A stretch of DNA of 64,000 nt from a virus, in IMG/VR virus record IMGVR_UViG_3300002138_000147, positions 105,128 to 169,127 of that record, one strand, 5' to 3'. Positions within the stretch are counted from its first letter, which is position 1; each line of letters opens with the position of its first letter. The translations under genes and the position numbers were made by a program. Shown here one piece after another: positions 7,459-58,870 of this stretch. The notes below the pieces were generated by a model that saw nothing but the letters and a program-made list of their open reading frames with translations, was not told where the DNA came from and did no database searches.

Positions 7459-8220
7459 ATGAGTAATTTACGAGATTATAACTTTGAGTTCAATCGTGCC
7501 AATCTAAAAGAGATTATTACAGTATTGAAAGACCTCACTAGAATCGATCAAATGATTAAAATGAAGATCGATAAAGAACATGTATTATTTTATTCACGTG
7601 CAGGAAAAGATAATTTCATTCACGGGTTTAAGTCATTTATGTATCCTGTTGAGGAATTCATTACAGCTGACGAACCAATCATTATGGACTTTATTGTTTT
7701 GAATGGTGGTAACTTTGTGAAAAATCTAGAATTGTATCTTGCAAAAGAAACGCCTATTCATGGTCGATTAGCTTACAAGGATAAAGACAAAATTGCTGGA
7801 ATGATGTATATCACAGACGGTAAATTGAAATTCAACTTTGTTACCGGTGACTACCGTCAAATTAAAGACATCTCAAAACAAGATGTTGAAAATAAGATGA
7901 ATCCTGATCTTGCAAACTTTTCATTTACTATGACTGGTGATGAATTTAGTGATATCAAGAAACTCTCTGCTCTTAATAAGAGTGAAACAATCTCGATGCG
8001 AGTAAAAAAAGGTAAACTTGAATTCTTTGATACAAGATGGTCAGTACATGTTGCAGATCTTCCAACAGTTGAAGATGAAATCTGGACTTTTAATAATAAG
8101 TACCTGAAGAGCATCACGCCTTCGGATCACATTACCATTCACATGTTTGACCAGTTTCTTTTATTTAAAGAAGACAATGTGGCGCTCATGATTGGTCTTG
8201 AACTCTCAAATATTCGATAA
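7459..8220 (+). CDS. 45: DNA polymerase sliding clamp (T4 gp45-like, 253 aa)
   Basis: Length and strand pattern fit the T4/RB69 clamp: an N-terminal helix (RANLKEIITVLKDL), then two tandem processivity folds, ending LLFKEDNVALMIGLELSNIR as clamps do. Trimeric clamps encircle DNA and tether the polymerase; in T4 the clamp also activates late transcription through gp55 and gp33. The matching loader (28966-29931), polymerase half (42984-44471) and gp55 (32273-32671) are all in this window. Confidence 0.75.
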   Translation: MSNLRDYNFEFNRANLKEIITVLKDLTRIDQMIKMKIDKEHVLFYSRAGKDNFIHGFKSFMYPVEEFITADEPIIMDFIVLNGGNFVKNLELYLAKETPIHGRLAYKDKDKIAGMMYITDGKLKFNFVTGDYRQIKDISKQDVENKMNPDLANFSFTMTGDEFSDIKKLSALNKSETISMRVKKGKLEFFDTRWSVHVADLPTVEDEIWTFNNKYLKSITPSDHITIHMFDQFLLFKEDNVALMIGLELSNIR

Positions 8221-15527: not shown

Positions 15528-16043
15528 TCAGTCTTGTAGGAACAATTCTTTTACGTCATATATAGGGATCTCCAAGGAGAGTGTGTATCGGTAACCGTTA
15601 GGTGATTCTGAGATAACTACTTGAATATCATTTACATAATTTTCAAGATCTGCTATTCCCGCATCGCTATCGAGTGTATAATCGTCAACCAGATAATGAT
15701 TTTCAATTGTCACACCATCAACTTTGATGGATCCACCGAGACGAGTAGTCTTGCGGTAGTTCACATTCATGTTGATCTCAATGATCTTGGCTACGATATT
15801 ATCAAGAAAGAACTTAATGTCTTCAGCGATGTCATCGTATCCTTTTTCAAGTGAATCAAGCTGTGGGTTATAATTCAATCCGAAGTTGAAATTGAAGGCG
15901 TACTTCTGGAGCATTTGACCTTCACCGAAAAAAAGTCTTTCGTAAATTCCTGCATTTTCCGTTGCGACATCATGGATGGCACCTTTGATATAAGATGCCA
16001 TTTCTTTATTGATGTCATGAAAACGGTTTGTGTGCTGTTCCAT
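15528..16043 (-). CDS. Unknown, probably structural protein (171 aa)
   Basis: MEQHTNRFHDINKEMAS..., alpha-helical first half and beta-rich second half (NGYRYTLSLEIPIYDV). It sits where T4 has the small terminase gene 16, directly before gene 17, but its beta-rich C-terminus is unlike gp16, so I do not assign it. A tail or neck component is equally possible. Confidence 0.6.
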   Translation of the reverse strand: MEQHTNRFHDINKEMASYIKGAIHDVATENAGIYERLFFGEGQMLQKYAFNFNFGLNYNPQLDSLEKGYDDIAEDIKFFLDNIVAKIIEINMNVNYRKTTRLGGSIKVDGVTIENHYLVDDYTLDSDAGIADLENYVNDIQVVISESPNGYRYTLSLEIPIYDVKELFLQD

Positions 16044-54776: not shown

Positions 54777-55427
54777 ATGAAAATTATAGCAAAGAACAAA
54801 GACTACTATGATGGACTAGTTCATACATTAGGTATTGATTCAGATATTATTTATACTCGGAAAGAATGCCAAAATATTAGTGTATATCTTAACAATATTA
54901 ATTTTCCAAATGATATCTATATTAATAATAATAATAGTGGTAGCTTTTATATTATTGGATTTGCTGGAAAAGTGTATCCAGCAATACGATTAGAACGTAA
55001 AAATTTAACAACTAATGTGATTGAATATGAATGGATTTACGATCAATCTACTATAAGTGAATTATTCACTTGTCAAAAGATTTACAAATGGAGATACTTA
55101 AATAATAAACAAAATGTAGAAACATTTGATCTATTTATCAAACAGCTTAATAATACATCTATTACCACATTATTTCATGAACATCAAGTAGGATCTTTTA
55201 TTCTTTGTAATAATATTTCTTCTATAAAACATAATTTATCATTAGAACCGCTTTTAAAAGATATAGATTTTTATAAATGCGTAGATCCGTTTGCAGCATT
55301 TCTTCAAATGCAAACATTTATATCAGAACAATTACGTCCAATAATGTCTGAAGTTCAACTTACTGATAAAGAGAAAGTTGTTGCAAAAGGTTTTGATCCA
55401 AAATATGGATTTAGAAAAAGAAAATGA
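54777..55427 (+). CDS. Unknown protein (216 aa)
   Basis: Start at ATG 54777 (MKIIAKNKDYYDGLVHTLG), directly after the promoter; the upstream ATG at 54744 lies inside the -33 element. Alpha/beta, with a basic C-terminus (GFDPKYGFRKRK). Not recognised. Lies just before the tRNA cluster. Confidence 0.6.
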   Translation: MKIIAKNKDYYDGLVHTLGIDSDIIYTRKECQNISVYLNNINFPNDIYINNNNSGSFYIIGFAGKVYPAIRLERKNLTTNVIEYEWIYDQSTISELFTCQKIYKWRYLNNKQNVETFDLFIKQLNNTSITTLFHEHQVGSFILCNNISSIKHNLSLEPLLKDIDFYKCVDPFAAFLQMQTFISEQLRPIMSEVQLTDKEKVVAKGFDPKYGFRKRK

Positions 55428-55469
55428 AAAAAAAAATAATAAATATTTTTATTATTCAAATATTATACA

Positions 55470-55477
55470 TATATTTG
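55470..55477 (+). promoter_or_regulatory. TAnnTTTG element upstream of tRNA cluster
   Basis: TATATTTG 33 nt before the first tRNA-like element, the likely promoter of the cluster. Confidence 0.5.
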
Positions 55478-55509
55478 CTTCATCAAACAAACACAAATAA
55501 GTGTTTAAC

Positions 55510-55588
55510 GGTTGGATAGCTCAGTGGGAGAGCAACAGTTACCGGGTTTCCGGAACTGTGGTCGTAGGTTCGAATCCTACTCCGGCCA
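55510..55588 (+). tRNA. tRNA-like gene with extended anticodon arm
   Basis: The acceptor GGTTGGA/TCCGGCC, D arm GCTC...GAGC and T arm GTAGG-TTCGAAT-CCTAC are sound. The anticodon stem ACAGT/ACTGT encloses 15 nt instead of 7. These fold into a further helix CCGG-GTTT-CCGG with one bulged A. No anticodon can be read. Confidence 0.6.
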
Positions 55589-55642
55589 CAAAAATTGGGA
55601 CTAATTACCCCAATATAATCCAGGGTTCGAAACCTGGGGATT
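55589..55642 (+). other. tRNA-derived fragment (T-arm-like)
   Basis: CCAGG-GTTCGAAA-CCTGG resembles a T arm with an eight-base loop, preceded by a hairpin ATTGGG/CCCAAT. No matching acceptor or D arm was found. Confidence 0.3.
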
Positions 55643-55731
55643 GATAAGTGGTGTATGGAGCACACTGGCTATGGTACCCTTTGCAGGGGAGAGCAAGCCG
55701 GGGGAATTGGGTTCGAGTCCCTTTGTTATCA
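55643..55731 (+). tRNA. Degenerate tRNA-like element with 27-nt anticodon loop
   Basis: Partial acceptor GATAA/TTATC, weak D arm, T loop TTCGAGT with only three G-C pairs. The anticodon stem CTGGC/GCCGG encloses 27 nt containing CCC/GGG. No readable anticodon. Confidence 0.35.
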
Positions 55732-55735
55732 CGAA

Positions 55736-55842
55736 GCATCTAGCTTAAATTGGAAAGTGCTGACGTGGAGTCAGAGATATATGGAGTAAAGAGCCATATG
55801 TTGCTTTTGTTCAGAGTCCTGCAGGATCTGAATTTGTATGCA
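55736..55842 (+). tRNA. Degenerate tRNA-like element
   Basis: Acceptor GCATCTA/TGTATGC (6 of 7). The anticodon-like arm CTGAC-GTGGA-GTCAG shares the loop CGTGGAG with 57042. An extra hairpin ATATGG/CCATAT sits in the variable region. The T arm is replaced by TTCAGA/TCTGAA with a bulge. Confidence 0.3.
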
Positions 55843-55853
55843 TACAAAAGTAA

Positions 55854-55926
55854 TGTAAGAGTTCGTGCGGATTAAGACAACTGCTGACACGGTAAGTATC
55901 GAAATCGTATGTGAATAGCTTTTACA
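55854..55926 (+). other. Possible tRNA remnant
   Basis: Ends pair as TGTAAGAG/CTTTTACA over 8 bp at tRNA-like spacing (73 nt), but no D or T arm is convincing. Confidence 0.25.
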
Positions 55927-55933
55927 TGAAAAG

Positions 55934-56008
55934 ACACATGTAGCTCAACTGGATAGAGCTCTGCGCCATTTGGGCTAGGGAGTACAGGTTCGAATCCTGT
56001 CATGTGTC
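55934..56008 (+). tRNA. tRNA-like gene with bulged anticodon arm
   Basis: Perfect acceptor ACACATG/CATGTGT plus a G-1:C73-type pair, D arm GCTC...GAGC, T arm ACAGG-TTCGAAT-CCTGT. The anticodon arm pairs only as CTG-[C]-GCC/GGC-TAG with a five-base loop ATTTG. No normal U33-anticodon is present. Confidence 0.55.
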
Positions 56009-56045
56009 CAAAAGGATGAACAAACGGTTCATTGATTATGTTTGA

Positions 56046-56117
56046 GGGGTAATAGCTCAGTCTAGTAGAGCGCCTGTAGAAAGCGGGAGGACGTCAGTGC
56101 GAATCTGATTTATCATT
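56046..56117 (+). tRNA. Degenerate tRNA-like element, possible Phe (GAA)
   Basis: Weak acceptor GGGGTAA/TTATCAT, good D arm, T arm GTCAG/CTGAT with loop TGCGAAT. Anticodon arm CCTG/CGGG, loop TAGAAAG, would read GAA but with A at position 33. Confidence 0.35.
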
Positions 56118-56190
56118 AGTAACAATGGATACGAAGACTTCGGTCGAAAACTTGTCGCCTTATATGGTTGCAAACGTATAAGGAAAAATA
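56118..56190 (+). other. Two hairpins, no tRNA recognised
   Basis: GAC-TTCG-GTC tetraloop hairpin and CCTTATA...TATAAGG stem with a 12-nt loop. Purpose unknown. Confidence 0.3.
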
Positions 56191-56194
56191 TTAT

Positions 56195-56260
56195 AGGGGT
56201 GTAGCTCAGTTGTTAGAGTGTTCGAATGAAAGGTCGGTGGTTAAATTCCATCCACCCCTA
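56195..56260 (+). tRNA. tRNA-like gene with truncated anticodon arm
   Basis: Perfect acceptor AGGGGTG/CACCCCT, D arm GCTC/GAGT, T stem GGTGG/CCATC with unusual loop TTAAATT. Only 16 nt separate D and T stems (22-23 is normal), allowing just a TTC-GAAT-GAA mini-hairpin. It cannot hold an anticodon loop. Confidence 0.5.
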
Positions 56261-56371
56261 CAAAATTAAAAAGTTTAATGTATTTTTTAAAACATATTAA
56301 TCTTTTTTTAAAAAAAGATATATAACATACAAATAAACATAAAGATGTGAGGAATTGCTTCTATATGTTCT

Positions 56372-56456
56372 GCGCGGTGATGTAATTGGTAACATTCGTG
56401 GCTCATAACCATGGTAGGCTTATAACCCTTGTGGACGTTCGACTCGGCCCTGCGCT
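56372..56456 (+). tRNA. tRNA-Met (CAT) with long variable region
   Basis: Anticodon arm CGTGG-CTCATAA-CCATG is canonical (anticodon at 56404-56406). Acceptor GCGCGG/CCTGCGC region, T arm GGACG-TTCGACT-CGGCC. The variable region is about 19 nt instead of 4-5 and includes AGG-CTTATAAC-CCT. Confidence 0.65.
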
Positions 56457-56473
56457 TCAAAAAAACATTTTAT

Positions 56474-56516
56474 AGAAAAGTTTTTAAAATAAATTTTTAT
56501 AATTAAAAACTTTTCT
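56474..56516. repeat. 14-bp perfect inverted repeat abutting a -7 box
   Basis: AGAAAAGTTTTTAA (56474-56487) and TTAAAAACTTTTCT (56503-56516), one base before TATATTTG at 56518. It may end upstream tRNA transcription or regulate the promoter. Confidence 0.7.
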
Positions 56517-56517
56517 G

Positions 56518-56525
56518 TATATTTG
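56518..56525 (+). promoter_or_regulatory. TAnnTTTG promoter -7 element
   Basis: TATATTTG in front of the micro-ORF at 56578 and the second tRNA group. Confidence 0.55.
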
Positions 56526-56577
56526 TCTTATAATTACAAGAAAGAGAAACAAAAATTACATATATAACATTACAAAG

Positions 56578-56655
56578 ATGAAAACATTTAATAAACATAA
56601 TAATAACAATTTTAAGTTCTGGTCAAACGACTCAGGCTCGGAAGAATTAATTTAG
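56578..56655 (+). CDS. Micro-ORF in tRNA cluster (25 aa)
   Basis: MKTFNKHNNNNFKFWSNDSG... between a promoter and a terminator, so probably a transcribed unit of its own. Coding status uncertain. Confidence 0.35.
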   Translation: MKTFNKHNNNNFKFWSNDSGSEELI

Positions 56656-56688
56656 TTTAGAAAACGAAACACATCTAAAAGAAATTTG

Positions 56689-56712
56689 AATCCCAGCCGA
56701 AAAGCTGGGATT
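56689..56712 (+). terminator. Rho-independent terminator
   Basis: AATCCCAGC/GCTGGGATT stem, six-base loop, followed by eleven T. Confidence 0.85.
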
Positions 56713-56727
56713 TTTTTTTTTAATACA

Positions 56728-56800
56728 CATCAGTAGTTCAATCGGTAGAATGACGGTCTCCAAAACCGTTGGTTGCAAGTTCGAGTCTTGCCTGGTGTGC
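56728..56800 (+). tRNA. tRNA-Trp (CCA)
   Basis: Acceptor ACATCAG/CTGGTGT, anticodon arm ACGGT-CTCCAAA-ACCGT, T arm GCAAG-TTCGAGT-CTTGC. CCA end not encoded. Confidence 0.9.
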
Positions 56801-56823
56801 CGCGACATTTTTGTATAATAAAT

Positions 56824-56898
56824 GCGTCTCTGGTGTAAACTGGTAGAGCACGTTGGTCTGAAAAACCATCGGTCAGGGTTCGATTCCCTGGGGACGCA
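56824..56898 (+). tRNA. tRNA-Phe (GAA)
   Basis: Acceptor GCGTCTC/GGGACGC, anticodon loop CTGAAAA on stem TTGGT/ACCAT, T arm CAGGG-TTCGATT-CCCTG. Confidence 0.88.
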
Positions 56899-56959
56899 CA
56901 AATGTGAACAAAGCCGTCTATGGCTCACAAAGAAGTGCACTTCTACATAGACGCTATAT

Positions 56960-57032
56960 TCCTCAGTAGCTCAGTTGGTAGAGCATGCGACTGTTAATCG
57001 TAAGGTCACTGGTTCGAACCCAGTTTGGGGAG
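56960..57032 (+). tRNA. tRNA-Asn (GTT)
   Basis: Acceptor TCCTCAG/TTGGGGA, anticodon arm TGCGA-CTGTTAA-TCGTA, T arm ACTGG-TTCGAAC-CCAGT. Confidence 0.92.
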
Positions 57033-57041
57033 CATTAAATT

Positions 57042-57113
57042 GGAGAGGTAGCTCAGTTGGTAGAGCAGGAGTCGTGGAGACTCTGGTCAATGGTTCAAAT
57101 CCATTTCTCTCCA
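57042..57113 (+). tRNA. tRNA with unusual anticodon loop (reads TGG; overlapping GTG)
   Basis: Acceptor GGAGAGG/TCTCTCC, D arm, and T arm AATGG-TTCAAAT-CCATT are good. The stem GGAGT/ACTCT carries loop CGTGGAG, with G instead of U at position 33. By position it would read TGG (Pro). Confidence 0.6.
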
Positions 57114-57123
57114 CTAAATATAT

Positions 57124-57210
57124 GGTGTATAAGCAGGATATTAGTTAGTCTGGCTTGTCTGTGAAACAAGTGCTCGAAAGGGCTTGCGAGTGCAATTCTC
57201 GTTATACACC
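57124..57210 (+). tRNA. tRNA-His (GTG) with class-II-like variable arm
   Basis: Eight-bp acceptor GGTGTATA/TATACACC gives the His-specific G-1:C73 pair. Anticodon arm CTTGT-CTGTGAA-ACAAG reads GTG (57161-57163). Between it and the T arm (GCGAG-TGCAATT-CTCGT) lies a 15-nt variable arm GCTC-GAAA-GGGC with a GNRA tetraloop. Bacterial tRNA-His normally has a short variable loop. Confidence 0.8.
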
Positions 57211-57234
57211 CAAGATGAAAAAGAAATTTGATGC

Positions 57235-57260
57235 GTTGTAAGGTAAATTAAACCTACAAC
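57235..57260 (+). promoter_or_regulatory. Hairpin just upstream of start codon 57264
   Basis: GTTGTA(A)GGT/ACCTACAAC with a short A/T loop, ending 3 nt before the ATG. It could control translation or terminate the tRNA transcript. Confidence 0.4.
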
Positions 57261-57263
57261 ACA

Positions 57264-57500
57264 ATGAGTATCAACAAAAGACGTGCTAAATTTGATTTGG
57301 CACAAAATGGGAAAGAGTACAGACGTATTCTTATGGACGAATTATATCCAATCTATTGGGATGAATGTATAGCATTTTATCCACTAATACCAAATAGATG
57401 GGCAAAAAGTTCAAACAAACGATTAATGCGGTGGCAACAAAGAATGTACCAAAGCTGGAAACACAACAGAAAAACACAATACAAAAATGAAAAAGATTAA
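57264..57500 (+). CDS. Small basic protein in tRNA cluster (78 aa)
   Basis: MSINKRRAKFDLAQNGKEYR..., Arg/Lys/Trp/Tyr-rich (MRWQQRMYQSWKHNRKTQ). The composition suggests RNA or DNA binding. Encoded between tRNA genes, so a link to tRNA function is tempting but unproven. Confidence 0.55.
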   Translation: MSINKRRAKFDLAQNGKEYRRILMDELYPIYWDECIAFYPLIPNRWAKSSNKRLMRWQQRMYQSWKHNRKTQYKNEKD

Positions 57501-57518
57501 GACATATAAGATTTAGCC

Positions 57519-57600
57519 AGCTCAGTAATTAAGTTACGGAGTTGGCATTATAATGACCTCGTAGCTTAGTTGGTTAAAGCACCGCACCAATGCTACTAAT
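57519..57600 (+). other. tRNA-derived hairpin and 5' tRNA half
   Basis: A hairpin GCCAGCTC/GAGTTGGC (57519-57549) is followed by GACCTCG-TA-GCTTAGTTGGTTAAAGC (57555-57580), a good acceptor/D-arm 5' half with no 3' half. Its end CACCAATGCT is the exact complement of the D arm of tRNA-Lys downstream. Confidence 0.4.
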
Positions 57601-57605
57601 ATTAA

Positions 57606-57677
57606 TCTTTCAAAGCATTGGTGGTGATGCAATAGACTTTTAATCTATGGAACCTGGTTCGACTCCAGGTGGGAGAA
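57606..57677 (+). tRNA. tRNA-Lys (TTT)
   Basis: Acceptor TCTTTCA/TGGGAGA (with G-U pairs), D arm GCAT-TGGTGGTG-ATGC, anticodon arm ATAGA-CTTTTAA-TCTAT, T arm CCTGG-TTCGACT-CCAGG. Complete. Confidence 0.82.
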
Positions 57678-57718
57678 CACAAGCAATCTACTAATTAATT
57701 TTGAAAGAGTTCATAGTT

Positions 57719-57738: not shown

Positions 57739-58551
57739 ATGAGTCATATATGTGAATATTGTAATTTAATATTTTTTTCAGGACAAAAATTAGGCGGTCA
57801 TAAACCAAATTGTAAAAGTGATCCTAATTATTTTATAAAATTAGAATTAAAAAAACAAAAATTACGAATTTTTAATACTGGTCGTAAATTAACAGAAGAA
57901 CATAAACAAAAAATATCAAAATCAAGGACAGAATATTTAAAAAACAATCCAGATAAAGTTCCATATTTACTTAATCATAGTAGTAAAATAAGTTATCCAG
58001 AATTAACAATGATAAAATATCTTACAGAGTATAATATAACTGGTTGGATTCATCAAATGCAATTTTCAATATATCAACTTGATTTTGCTTTTCCTGAATA
58101 TAAATTATGTGTTGAAATTGATGGAAGTACACATTTACAAAAAAAAGTTATAGAAATTGATAAACGACGTGATGATTTTTTACGTGGTAGTGGATGGAAA
58201 ACATTAAGAATATCAGCAAAAGATATTAATAATAATATTTATACAGCTATTAATAAAATTTTACAATTACTTGATAAAAAAAAAATTGAAATACCTTCTG
58301 AATTTCTTACAAAACAATATTATAAAGAACAGAAAATCAGAGAAGCTAGAGAAGAAAAAAATAAAAAAGAACAAGATAAACTAGAAAAAATTAATAACAG
58401 GATTCAATTAATTTTAAATTCAAAAATTGATTTTCTAAAAATTGGTTGGATGTGTAAAGTTTCAATAATTTTAAATATTACACATCCTAATGTAAAACGT
58501 TTCATGAAAAAAAATATGCAAGATTTTTATGAAACATGTTATCATAGATAA
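57739..58551 (+). CDS. Homing-type endonuclease: zinc finger, NUMOD-like, Vsr/DUF559-like nuclease (270 aa)
   Basis: Residues 4-26 form a C2HC-type finger (CEYC...GHKPNC). GRKLTEEHKQKISKS (~49-63) is a NUMOD3-type DNA-binding motif common in homing enzymes. LDFAFPEYKLCVEIDGSTH (~112-130) with a basic helix and GWKTLRIS is a Vsr/DUF559-like PD-(D/E)XK core. The C-terminus is a basic coiled coil. Very A-rich compared with neighbours, in line with a mobile gene. It sits at the end of the tRNA cluster and may move with it. Confidence 0.78.
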   Translation: MSHICEYCNLIFFSGQKLGGHKPNCKSDPNYFIKLELKKQKLRIFNTGRKLTEEHKQKISKSRTEYLKNNPDKVPYLLNHSSKISYPELTMIKYLTEYNITGWIHQMQFSIYQLDFAFPEYKLCVEIDGSTHLQKKVIEIDKRRDDFLRGSGWKTLRISAKDINNNIYTAINKILQLLDKKKIEIPSEFLTKQYYKEQKIREAREEKNKKEQDKLEKINNRIQLILNSKIDFLKIGWMCKVSIILNITHPNVKRFMKKNMQDFYETCYHR

Positions 58552-58627
58552 ACATATAGAATACACAACGAGAAGTTGTAACTGGATCATTACCAGGTGT
58601 GTTCCGCTAAATTTTAAATATAGCCAA

Positions 58628-58870
58628 ATGGAAACTACAACCATTTTGAAGACCATTGTTACAGCAGGTAACATGGCAAAGATTACTCATGCTATTGCTG
58701 GAGTACTTTATTATCAAGTCAACACATCTGATGGTTCATATCAATTTACTGTTGATATGAATGACAGAGAAGACGTAGGAACTACTTCATTTGATGCAGA
58801 AATTAAAGCAATCACACTTATGCGTTATGTACGCAAGGCAATAAAGAATGAAGAACTCATTAAATTGTAA
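58628..58870 (+). CDS. Small conserved-looking phage protein (80 aa)
   Basis: Start at ATG 58628 (METTTILKTIVTAGNMAK); ATG 58673 (MAKITHAIAGVLYYQV) is an alternative. A beta-hairpin then helix pattern (YQFTVDMNDREDVGTTSF, LMRYVRKAI) recurs in small Bacteroidota phage proteins. Unknown role. Confidence 0.55.
   Translation: METTTILKTIVTAGNMAKITHAIAGVLYYQVNTSDGSYQFTVDMNDREDVGTTSFDAEIKAITLMRYVRKAIKNEELIKL

Follow-up and report, generated by a model that had tools for sequence, protein, structure and literature searches.

It is an old question why phages carry so many tRNA genes. A phage tRNA reportedly counters a tRNA-cutting defence, to judge from the title of the PARIS study, and the OLD nuclease is said, in the title of a 2025 study by Govande et al., to amputate the anticodon arm of tRNA. 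The acceptor and T parts of tRNA are recognised by EF-Tu, by CCA enzymes, by the nucleases that process tRNA ends and by toxins acting on the acceptor end. The bacterial Y RNA YrlA (RF02553) contains a tRNA-like module and represents mimicry by a non-decoding RNA. Phage tRNAs that counter tRNA-cutting defences are also described in the available parts of reports on retrons (PMC11555353) and Septu (PMC13096335). No paper on phage tRNA genes without an anticodon arm was found among the results listed for the literature searched, which excluded most subscription papers and bioRxiv.

The window, which is the whole 64,000-nucleotide stretch of DNA analysed, corresponds to G000:C1:105128-169127, the terminal part of a virus record of 169,127 bases. 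Its phage encodes portal and terminase domains of the T4-like type and is regarded as a jumbo phage, because a near-identical contig, G001, is 313,708 bases long. The window contains a tRNA array at 55510-57678, in which ordinary tRNA genes for Met, Trp, Phe, Asn, Pro, His and Lys (ARAGORN) are located on the plus strand at 56371..57678 and odd elements precede them. A small conserved phage gene (58628..58870, plus strand; ORF listed at 58529-58870) adjoins the array and was used as an anchor for finding relatives. A protein of the DUF559/REase type, perhaps a homing endonuclease, is encoded directly after the array at 57739-58551, and a distant copy of its gene is located near other tRNAs in G001 at approximately 50.7-51.4 kb. 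The second tRNA cluster of the record contains a tRNA with a CTA anticodon (G000:C1:82734-82805; Pyl type according to ARAGORN), possibly an amber suppressor. Another CTA-type tRNA is located at 121630-121701 of G002, a record of 507,910 bases whose terminase is 43% identical to that of the window phage.

Three of the odd elements, at 55510, 55934 and 56195, match the Rfam tRNA model (RF00005) above the gathering score. Each forms 7/7 acceptor, 4/4 D and 5/5 T pairs, and none contains the anticodon arm of 5 bp and 7 nt. The observation is real for these three elements, which exceed chance expectation: a body-only finder scores them at 19.6, 20.4 and 18.4, respectively, and gives no match at a score of ≥16 and nine at ≥15 in 371,444 reversed bases. 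Their acceptor stems extend beyond seven pairs by 0 or 1 pair. CCA is encoded by none of the finder-detected tRNA-like genes of the window, so that a CCA end would need to be added. No tmRNA was found in the window by ARAGORN or Rfam. YrlA (RF02553) overlaps in the window score only 18.7 and 16.9 bits against a cut-off of 69, and no match to it at the gathering score was found in 13 further loci.

The element at 55510..55588 (plus strand; 53.4 bits with the Rfam tRNA model) consists of a 7-bp acceptor stem (55510-55516/55581-55587), a D arm (55519-55533), an altered anticodon arm and a T arm (55564-55580), with A at position 73. Its 5-bp anticodon stem, ACAGT/ACTGT (55535-55539/55555-55559), closes a 15-nt loop, which folds into a CCGG/CCGG helix. 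RNAfold predicts a cloverleaf of −34.1 kcal/mol (z −3.5; 1/200 shuffles as good), in which the elongated anticodon arm (55535..55559) is formed by 6 bp, a bulged A, 4 bp and a GUUU loop. Position 33 is A, and ARAGORN does not report this element as a tRNA. The element at 55934..56008 (plus strand; 44.7 bits; C at position 73) has a bulged arm within 55960-55983, in which only CT/AG and GCC/GGC pairs are found with a 5-nt loop between them. Its minimum-free-energy fold is not a cloverleaf (z −1.5; 15/200 shuffles as good), and it is the only one of the three that is reported by ARAGORN, as tRNA-Lys(ttt). These results agree with the sequence-only reading, which had described an extra helix in the 15-nt loop of 55510 and a bulged arm with a five-base loop in 55934.

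The 66-nt element at 56195..56260 (plus strand; 49.8 bits) has been reduced, as also proposed in that reading, to a mini-hairpin of 3 bp and a 4-nt loop, TTC-GAAT-GAA, at 56221-56230. Its D-loop, AGTTGTTA, does not contain GG, and its T-loop, TTAAATT, has lost C56, although the T stem is fully paired. This element cannot form the usual elbow, because both the D-loop GG and C56 are missing. Thus, the D and T arms described earlier as intact are intact in the stems of all three elements, but not in the loops of 56195. The fold of 56195 is better than those of most shuffles (z −2.75; 1/200 as good) and keeps the acceptor, the mini-arm and the T stem, with the D region paired differently; ARAGORN does not report it as a tRNA. 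A cousin of the same size, 66 nt, is located at G002:121446-121511 (L116 in the class scan described below). Its mini-arm, TCT-GTAA-AGA, differs from that of 56195 by two compensated pairs, its D-loop likewise contains no GG, and its fold gives a z of −2.46.

Other parts of the cluster are clearly decayed. The tRNA at 56046..56117 (plus strand; 32 bits; fold z +0.54) retains a 7-nt anticodon loop, but its acceptor is damaged (6/7 pairs), and a lone T-arm remnant is located at approximately 55620-55637. These relics, which the sequence-only reading had overlooked, indicate that ordinary decay also occurs in the cluster. Two stretches within 55643..55810 (plus strand), starting at 55643 and 55736, had been taken for decayed tRNAs with extra hairpins. 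This assignment is not upheld: the region contains only a T-arm-like segment, neither stretch gives an Rfam tRNA match even at E≤5, and their folds give z values of −0.7 (51/200 shuffles as good) and −1.6 (9/200), respectively. As regards pseudogenes, the stems outside the anticodon arm are intact in the three elements, yet relics adjoin them.

The near-identical contig G001 retains all three elements. It is 99.93% identical to the window over 16.7 kb, with 10 substitutions, none of which is located in 55427-57000. Because of this identity it is uninformative on constraint; the agreement of the two records makes a single assembly error unlikely. The anchor gene led to 13 loci. In 12 anchored loci, two of which are largely duplicates and in which orthologues are not individually assignable, 148 of the 161 finder matches look normal. 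The other 13 were flagged as non-canonical and reviewed one by one. The array of one relative, G003 (locus L427), contains three odd elements in its upstream part and normal tRNAs near the anchor gene. They are L427:1167 (62 nt, no anticodon arm), L427:1798 (a shortened arm, labelled canonical by the finder, but not by Rfam-based parsing) and L427:2987 (a 5-bp stem with an 18-nt loop). In all three, the acceptor has 6/7 pairs and the fold is not superior to those of shuffled sequences (z +0.32, −0.42 and −0.93). Other relatives contain L433:2473 (57 nt, no arm, outside the Rfam list) and L436:4418 (a 51-nt loop). L427:1167, L427:2987, L433:2473 and L436:4418, plus L427:1798, were accepted as odd elements of the anchored loci. 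Of the rejected matches, L434:7716 is, by reading, a His tRNA that was misparsed (Rfam: 7709-7779); the minus-strand L436:4047, L427:7167 and L430:1927 are ascribed to misparsing or chance, and L427:3094, L427:7063 and L436:7067 were rejected for their near-normal loops; L431:1834 and L434:2172 were left out of the accepted set.

Among 263 Rfam tRNA matches in the jumbo-phage group, 220 are intact, five have several faulty arms, and single-arm faults affect the anticodon arm in 14, the acceptor in 12, the T arm in nine and the D arm in three; this count is biased, because the Rfam model tolerates anticodon-arm changes best, and it includes some matches below the Rfam cut-off and leaves out the G001 matches in two clusters shared with G000, plus one more G001 match. 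Gross changes (arm absent, mini-arm or loop of ≥15 nt) are found mainly in the anticodon arm, by reading of the sequences. Thus, the proposed focus of the loss on one arm is weakly seen in the phage group. Our own finder counted 16 elements with the anticodon arm lost (2 in reversed sequence), 55 with the D arm lost (11) and 102 with the T arm lost (52), but these arm-symmetry counts are unusable, because the D and T classes consist, by inspection, mostly of misparsed normal tRNAs. A different layout is seen at L434:7156-7235, L434:4178-4252 and L024:1746-1823 (G002:320245-320323), and possibly at G000:C1:85232-85308. In these genes, an anticodon-type hairpin directly follows the 5' part of the acceptor, apparently within the D region, and a further segment precedes the T arm, so that the arms are possibly re-ordered.

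The same layout was searched for elsewhere by a consensus scan with one D-arm consensus and a short middle of N{6,14}, a long middle of N{22,38} or a normal middle. The short-middle scan gave 112 stretches in viral_contigs and 44 in genome_contigs, of which 8 contain N in the arm. The long-middle and normal-middle scans gave at least 120 stretches each, and because these are lower bounds, the long-arm and normal sets are samples of unknown randomness. Of the long-arm stretches, 119 were parsed, the remaining one presumably being located at a locus edge. Without a total for normal viral tRNAs, no frequency is claimed. Acceptor 7/7 and T 5/5 pairs are present together in 54/113 short, 93/119 long, 108/137 normal and 22/44 bacterial matches. 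The 119 long matches comprise 33 with a canonical arm, some of which (L340, L343, L374, L377 and L380) may be misfiled by a lenient test, 39 whose 5-bp stem encloses a large loop, and 47 of neither kind; the same lenient test permits canonical pairing in 21/113 short matches. Four mini elements (L089, L093, L109 and L125) represent one sequence, which is probably a tRNA-Met (CAT) with a shifted D arm, and were rejected as members, but remained in the mini counts for parsing, pairing, helix length, CCA, GG, G3:U70 and neighbours. Some of the bacterial mini elements that contain N are alanine-like, indicating that assembly faults can imitate a short arm. In INPHARED, two window elements match 128 and 391 records (15 listed of each); three class elements were searched there, and no clear class member was found in the three matching regions inspected. 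These elements form a loose class, united by layout and one D-arm consensus, and their common descent is putative.

Several further elements were noted. The unannotated region L439:640-735 of Thermus phage P23-77 (record 15801-15896) has a T arm and ends in CCA; its 5' strand matches in part, and a normal D arm is missing. A permuted tmRNA (RF04321, 61.6 bits) is located on the minus strand at L030:8080-8325 of a phage contig, near the mini element L030:8828-8895, which is also on the minus strand. Eight elements in tRNA format (L269, L271, L295, L307, L313, L342, L347 and L356) have a CTTATAC or TTTATAC loop (anticodon TAT), a long variable part and a common GATAAG motif. The mini element L398:4217-4284 is located in a Dysgonomonas contig approximately 2 kb from a phage-type reverse transcriptase (L398:6049-7053).

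The replacement arms are paired. When the three closing pairs were counted in viral and bacterial mini-arms pooled, for arms without N, 26/27 are formed at a length of 11 (9 arms), 25/30 at 12, 51/60 at 13 and 59/78 at 14, against shuffled means of 13.5, 16.2, 27.5 and 34.1, and 0/2000 shuffles reach any of these counts; nine distinct arms of 7-10 nt stand outside this test. In 74 distinct non-canonical long arms, 298/370 of the five closing pairs are formed, against a shuffled mean of 162.7 and a maximum of 193 (0/2000 shuffles reach 298), and 30 arms pair all five. Some arms end in GNRA-like loops, such as GTA-GAAA/GCAA-TAC of L037/L058. In the pairs L301/L310, L292/L371 and L037/L058, the arms are kept, the stems are altered on both sides and the flanks do not align; the acceptors of L292 and L037 have 6/7 pairs. 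The helix is longer in some cases, with ten pairs in L310 and similar pairing one base off in L301. A 63-nt family without the arm is found at 11 loci, one of them bacterial. Its non-identical pairs are 94-98% identical and some of its flanks do not align, so that it represents an island of conservation. Its acceptor helix extends 3-4 pairs beyond seven, suggesting that this family may be another kind of RNA. Acceptor stems too long by at least 3 bp are found in 7/37 mini and 7/59 long-arm elements, as compared with 0/100 normal tRNAs. These elements, which include L310 and the 63-nt family, may represent RNAs of another kind.

The CCA end was counted for elements with perfect stems. In arrays that encode CCA, it is present in 12/14 long-arm, 1/4 mini and 32/33 normal elements; in arrays that do not encode it, in 2/18, 1/13 and 2/38; and without neighbouring tRNAs, in 3/20, 0/13 and 23/29, respectively. 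One of the two CCA-bearing mini elements is probably a tRNA-Met. Position 1:72 is G-C in 20/52 long-arm and 15/30 mini elements, as compared with 80/100 normal tRNAs (Fisher 6e-7 and 0.002), and T-A in 15/52 long-arm elements and 3/100 normal tRNAs. C73 is present in 8/30 mini elements, as compared with 1/100 normal tRNAs. The D-loop GG is absent in 12/59 long-arm, 4/37 mini and 2/97 normal elements, indicating that an elbow mimic does not suit all members and that part of the class gave up the elbow. G3:U70 is the alanine signal. It is present in 8/69 viral mini, 8/106 long-arm, 14/124 normal and 11/29 bacterial mini elements, so that the idea of an alanine signal in the viral mini elements was rejected. 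When 148 of the 228 listed neighbour proteins were compared with PHROGs and Pfam, a set that omits some of the longer ORFs, a handful of other proteins and the end of the list, at most 4 share a family and no common neighbour gene was found. A gene of the PF01743 family (CCA enzyme or poly(A) polymerase) is present in four of the five records, G000 (at G000:C1:78523-78900), G001, G002 and G007; none was found within the 110 kb of G003.

The three elements may be non-decoding phage RNAs in tRNA format, which would be matured like tRNAs and serve as decoys for proteins reading the top half; this is the reading that we favour, with less than even confidence. In this scheme, the D stem, the T arm and the acceptor stem, whose CCA is either encoded or added later, would have been kept, and the anticodon arm would have been swapped for a hairpin of different size or almost eliminated. 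The RNAs would be cut at the acceptor ends and then receive CCA, for which the phage's own gene of the CCA-enzyme/poly(A)-polymerase family is a candidate. Once mature, the RNA would occupy a reader of the acceptor/T half, most likely a host defence or toxin that attacks tRNA, as a decoy that could neither enter decoding nor be cut in the anticodon loop. Transcription, processing, a protein target and decoy action are what we infer for these elements. In favour of this reading are the intact body stems, the compensated cousin in G002, the odd elements of G003, the recurrence of the layout, the paired and partly conserved new arms, CCA retention and 1:72 usage in long-arm elements, the PF01743 genes and the frequent absence of other tRNAs from the fetched loci. 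Against it are the missing elbow bases, the poor folds and 6/7 acceptors of the G003 elements, the weak CCA retention of mini elements, the over-long acceptor stems, the lack of a common neighbour gene and the relics in the cluster. Rather tentatively, many dsDNA phages, including jumbo phages and prophages, might encode a class of such armless RNAs as free top-half mimics or decoys, and might thereby sequester toxins, defence nucleases or tRNA-processing factors of the host without decoding. The sequence-only reading had considered decoys for anticodon nucleases. These are possible only indirectly, because the elements do not have the loop that such nucleases cut, and a decoy for readers of the acceptor/T half would fit better.

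The three genes might instead be dying tRNA genes, in which a first lesion, by chance in the anticodon arm, abolished decoding and decay has not yet reached the remainder. We consider this somewhat unlikely, and the evidence differs between the window and the class. In the window, clear relics are located in the same cluster, 56195 has lost the D-loop GG and C56, and the near-identity of G001 gives no test of constraint; single-arm faults in the phage group are spread over the arms, the G003 elements fold poorly and CCA retention is weak in mini elements. In the class, however, the new arms pair far above shuffles, compensated and conserved elements are located in unlike flanks, and the long-arm elements retain CCA and show altered 1:72 usage. 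Their acceptors are also kept, with 7/7 pairs in 39/47 long-arm elements with neither arm type and in 27/39 with a 5-bp stem and a large loop, as compared with 113/133 normal tRNAs; the value for mini elements is lower, 44/85, partly through false matches. Pairing and conservation thus make decay probably a poor general explanation for the class, and this holds better for long-arm elements than for mini elements. Small introns spliced out of the anticodon loop, also proposed earlier, are very improbable. Stems of 5 bp that close loops of 9 to 51 nt do exist (55510, G003:32914 and L436:4418), but T33 and R37 are both present in only 7/36 long-loop elements, as compared with 100/106 normal tRNAs, 55510 has A33, and mini-arms are shorter than a normal arm. 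Moreover, the RNA-ligase families PF09511, PF09414 and PF01139 gave no match in G000 and G001, both of which may be incomplete; among the five records, RNA-ligase families are found only in G002 and G007, and RtcB in none. For the class, the evidence therefore argues against both simple decay and introns at the canonical site, but it is not decisive for the three genes of the window.

Two other uses of such genes are improbable. The acceptor and T arm are the parts of tRNA needed for end processing, and they are the parts that are kept, so that the elements could be tRNA-shaped cut sites at which host tRNA-end nucleases divide long phage transcripts, with no use of the free RNA. For about half of the elements (29/53 mini and 36/75 long-arm, together 65/128, as compared with 33/125 normal, in loci of varying length), the fetched locus contains no further tRNA, which also agrees with cut sites. 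A cut site would, however, need neither the CCA of the long-arm elements nor conserved, compensated arms, and the window elements are located among normal tRNAs that would serve equally. Much the same low weight is given to charged, non-decoding tRNAs that would act away from the ribosome, as donors of amino acids or as gene-regulating sensors, for instance. This possibility is favoured by the CCA ends of some class members, by the distinct usage of 1:72 and position 73, and by a Bacillus cereus pseudo-tRNA for which a role outside translation is described in the available part of PMC3399842. On the other hand, G3:U70 is not enriched in viral mini elements and no common partner gene was found. 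The earlier suggestion that these tRNAs were reshaped for another job is supported at the level of the class, by conserved and compensated elements, arm pairing, long-arm CCA and 1:72 usage, but not at that of the three genes themselves.

A conserved non-decoding subset, if true, would show that some phage tRNA genes have a different use, and would direct attention to a counter-defence likely to be discarded in annotation as pseudogenes or undetermined tRNAs. Two copies of the class are present in scaffolds titled Phocaeicola plebeius DSM 17135 (L414:7158-7224, next to a gene for a tail tape-measure protein) and Sphingobacterium alimentarium DSM 22362 (L393:6799-6865), so that the idea can be tested in cultures of these collection strains.

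The titled product of the OLD nuclease, a tRNA without an anticodon arm, is the shape that these genes encode directly, but OLD is a host nuclease and its tie to these genes is hypothetical. YrlA differs in that its overlaps with the window are only sub-threshold. Whole arms have been lost naturally in the armless mitochondrial tRNAs covered by the available text of PMC7609411 and PMC12221289, but those tRNAs have lost the D or T arm. Anticodon stems that deviate from 5 bp are described in the accessible portions of PMC7609411 (6 bp in tRNA-Pyl) and PMC13092985 (4 bp in bacteria); in those cases one pair is changed and the tRNA still decodes, whereas here the loop and the anticodon are lost. 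The tRNA-Other of Bacillus cereus is likewise a tRNA-like gene that is not used in translation, but in the part of PMC3399842 available it has a Trp anticodon and belongs to a larger transcript, and no phage origin is described there. The phage tRNAs with anticodon-loop mutations, as presented in the available part of PMC10264068, also have their changes concentrated in the anticodon arm; those are loop mutations, whereas the arm of the elements described here has a different size, has been replaced or is almost missing. The known anti-defence tRNAs are, according to the available parts of the reports cited above, phage tRNA genes as well and neutralise defences that destroy host tRNA. They decode, replacing or supplementing the lost host tRNA, whereas the elements described here present no normal anticodon.
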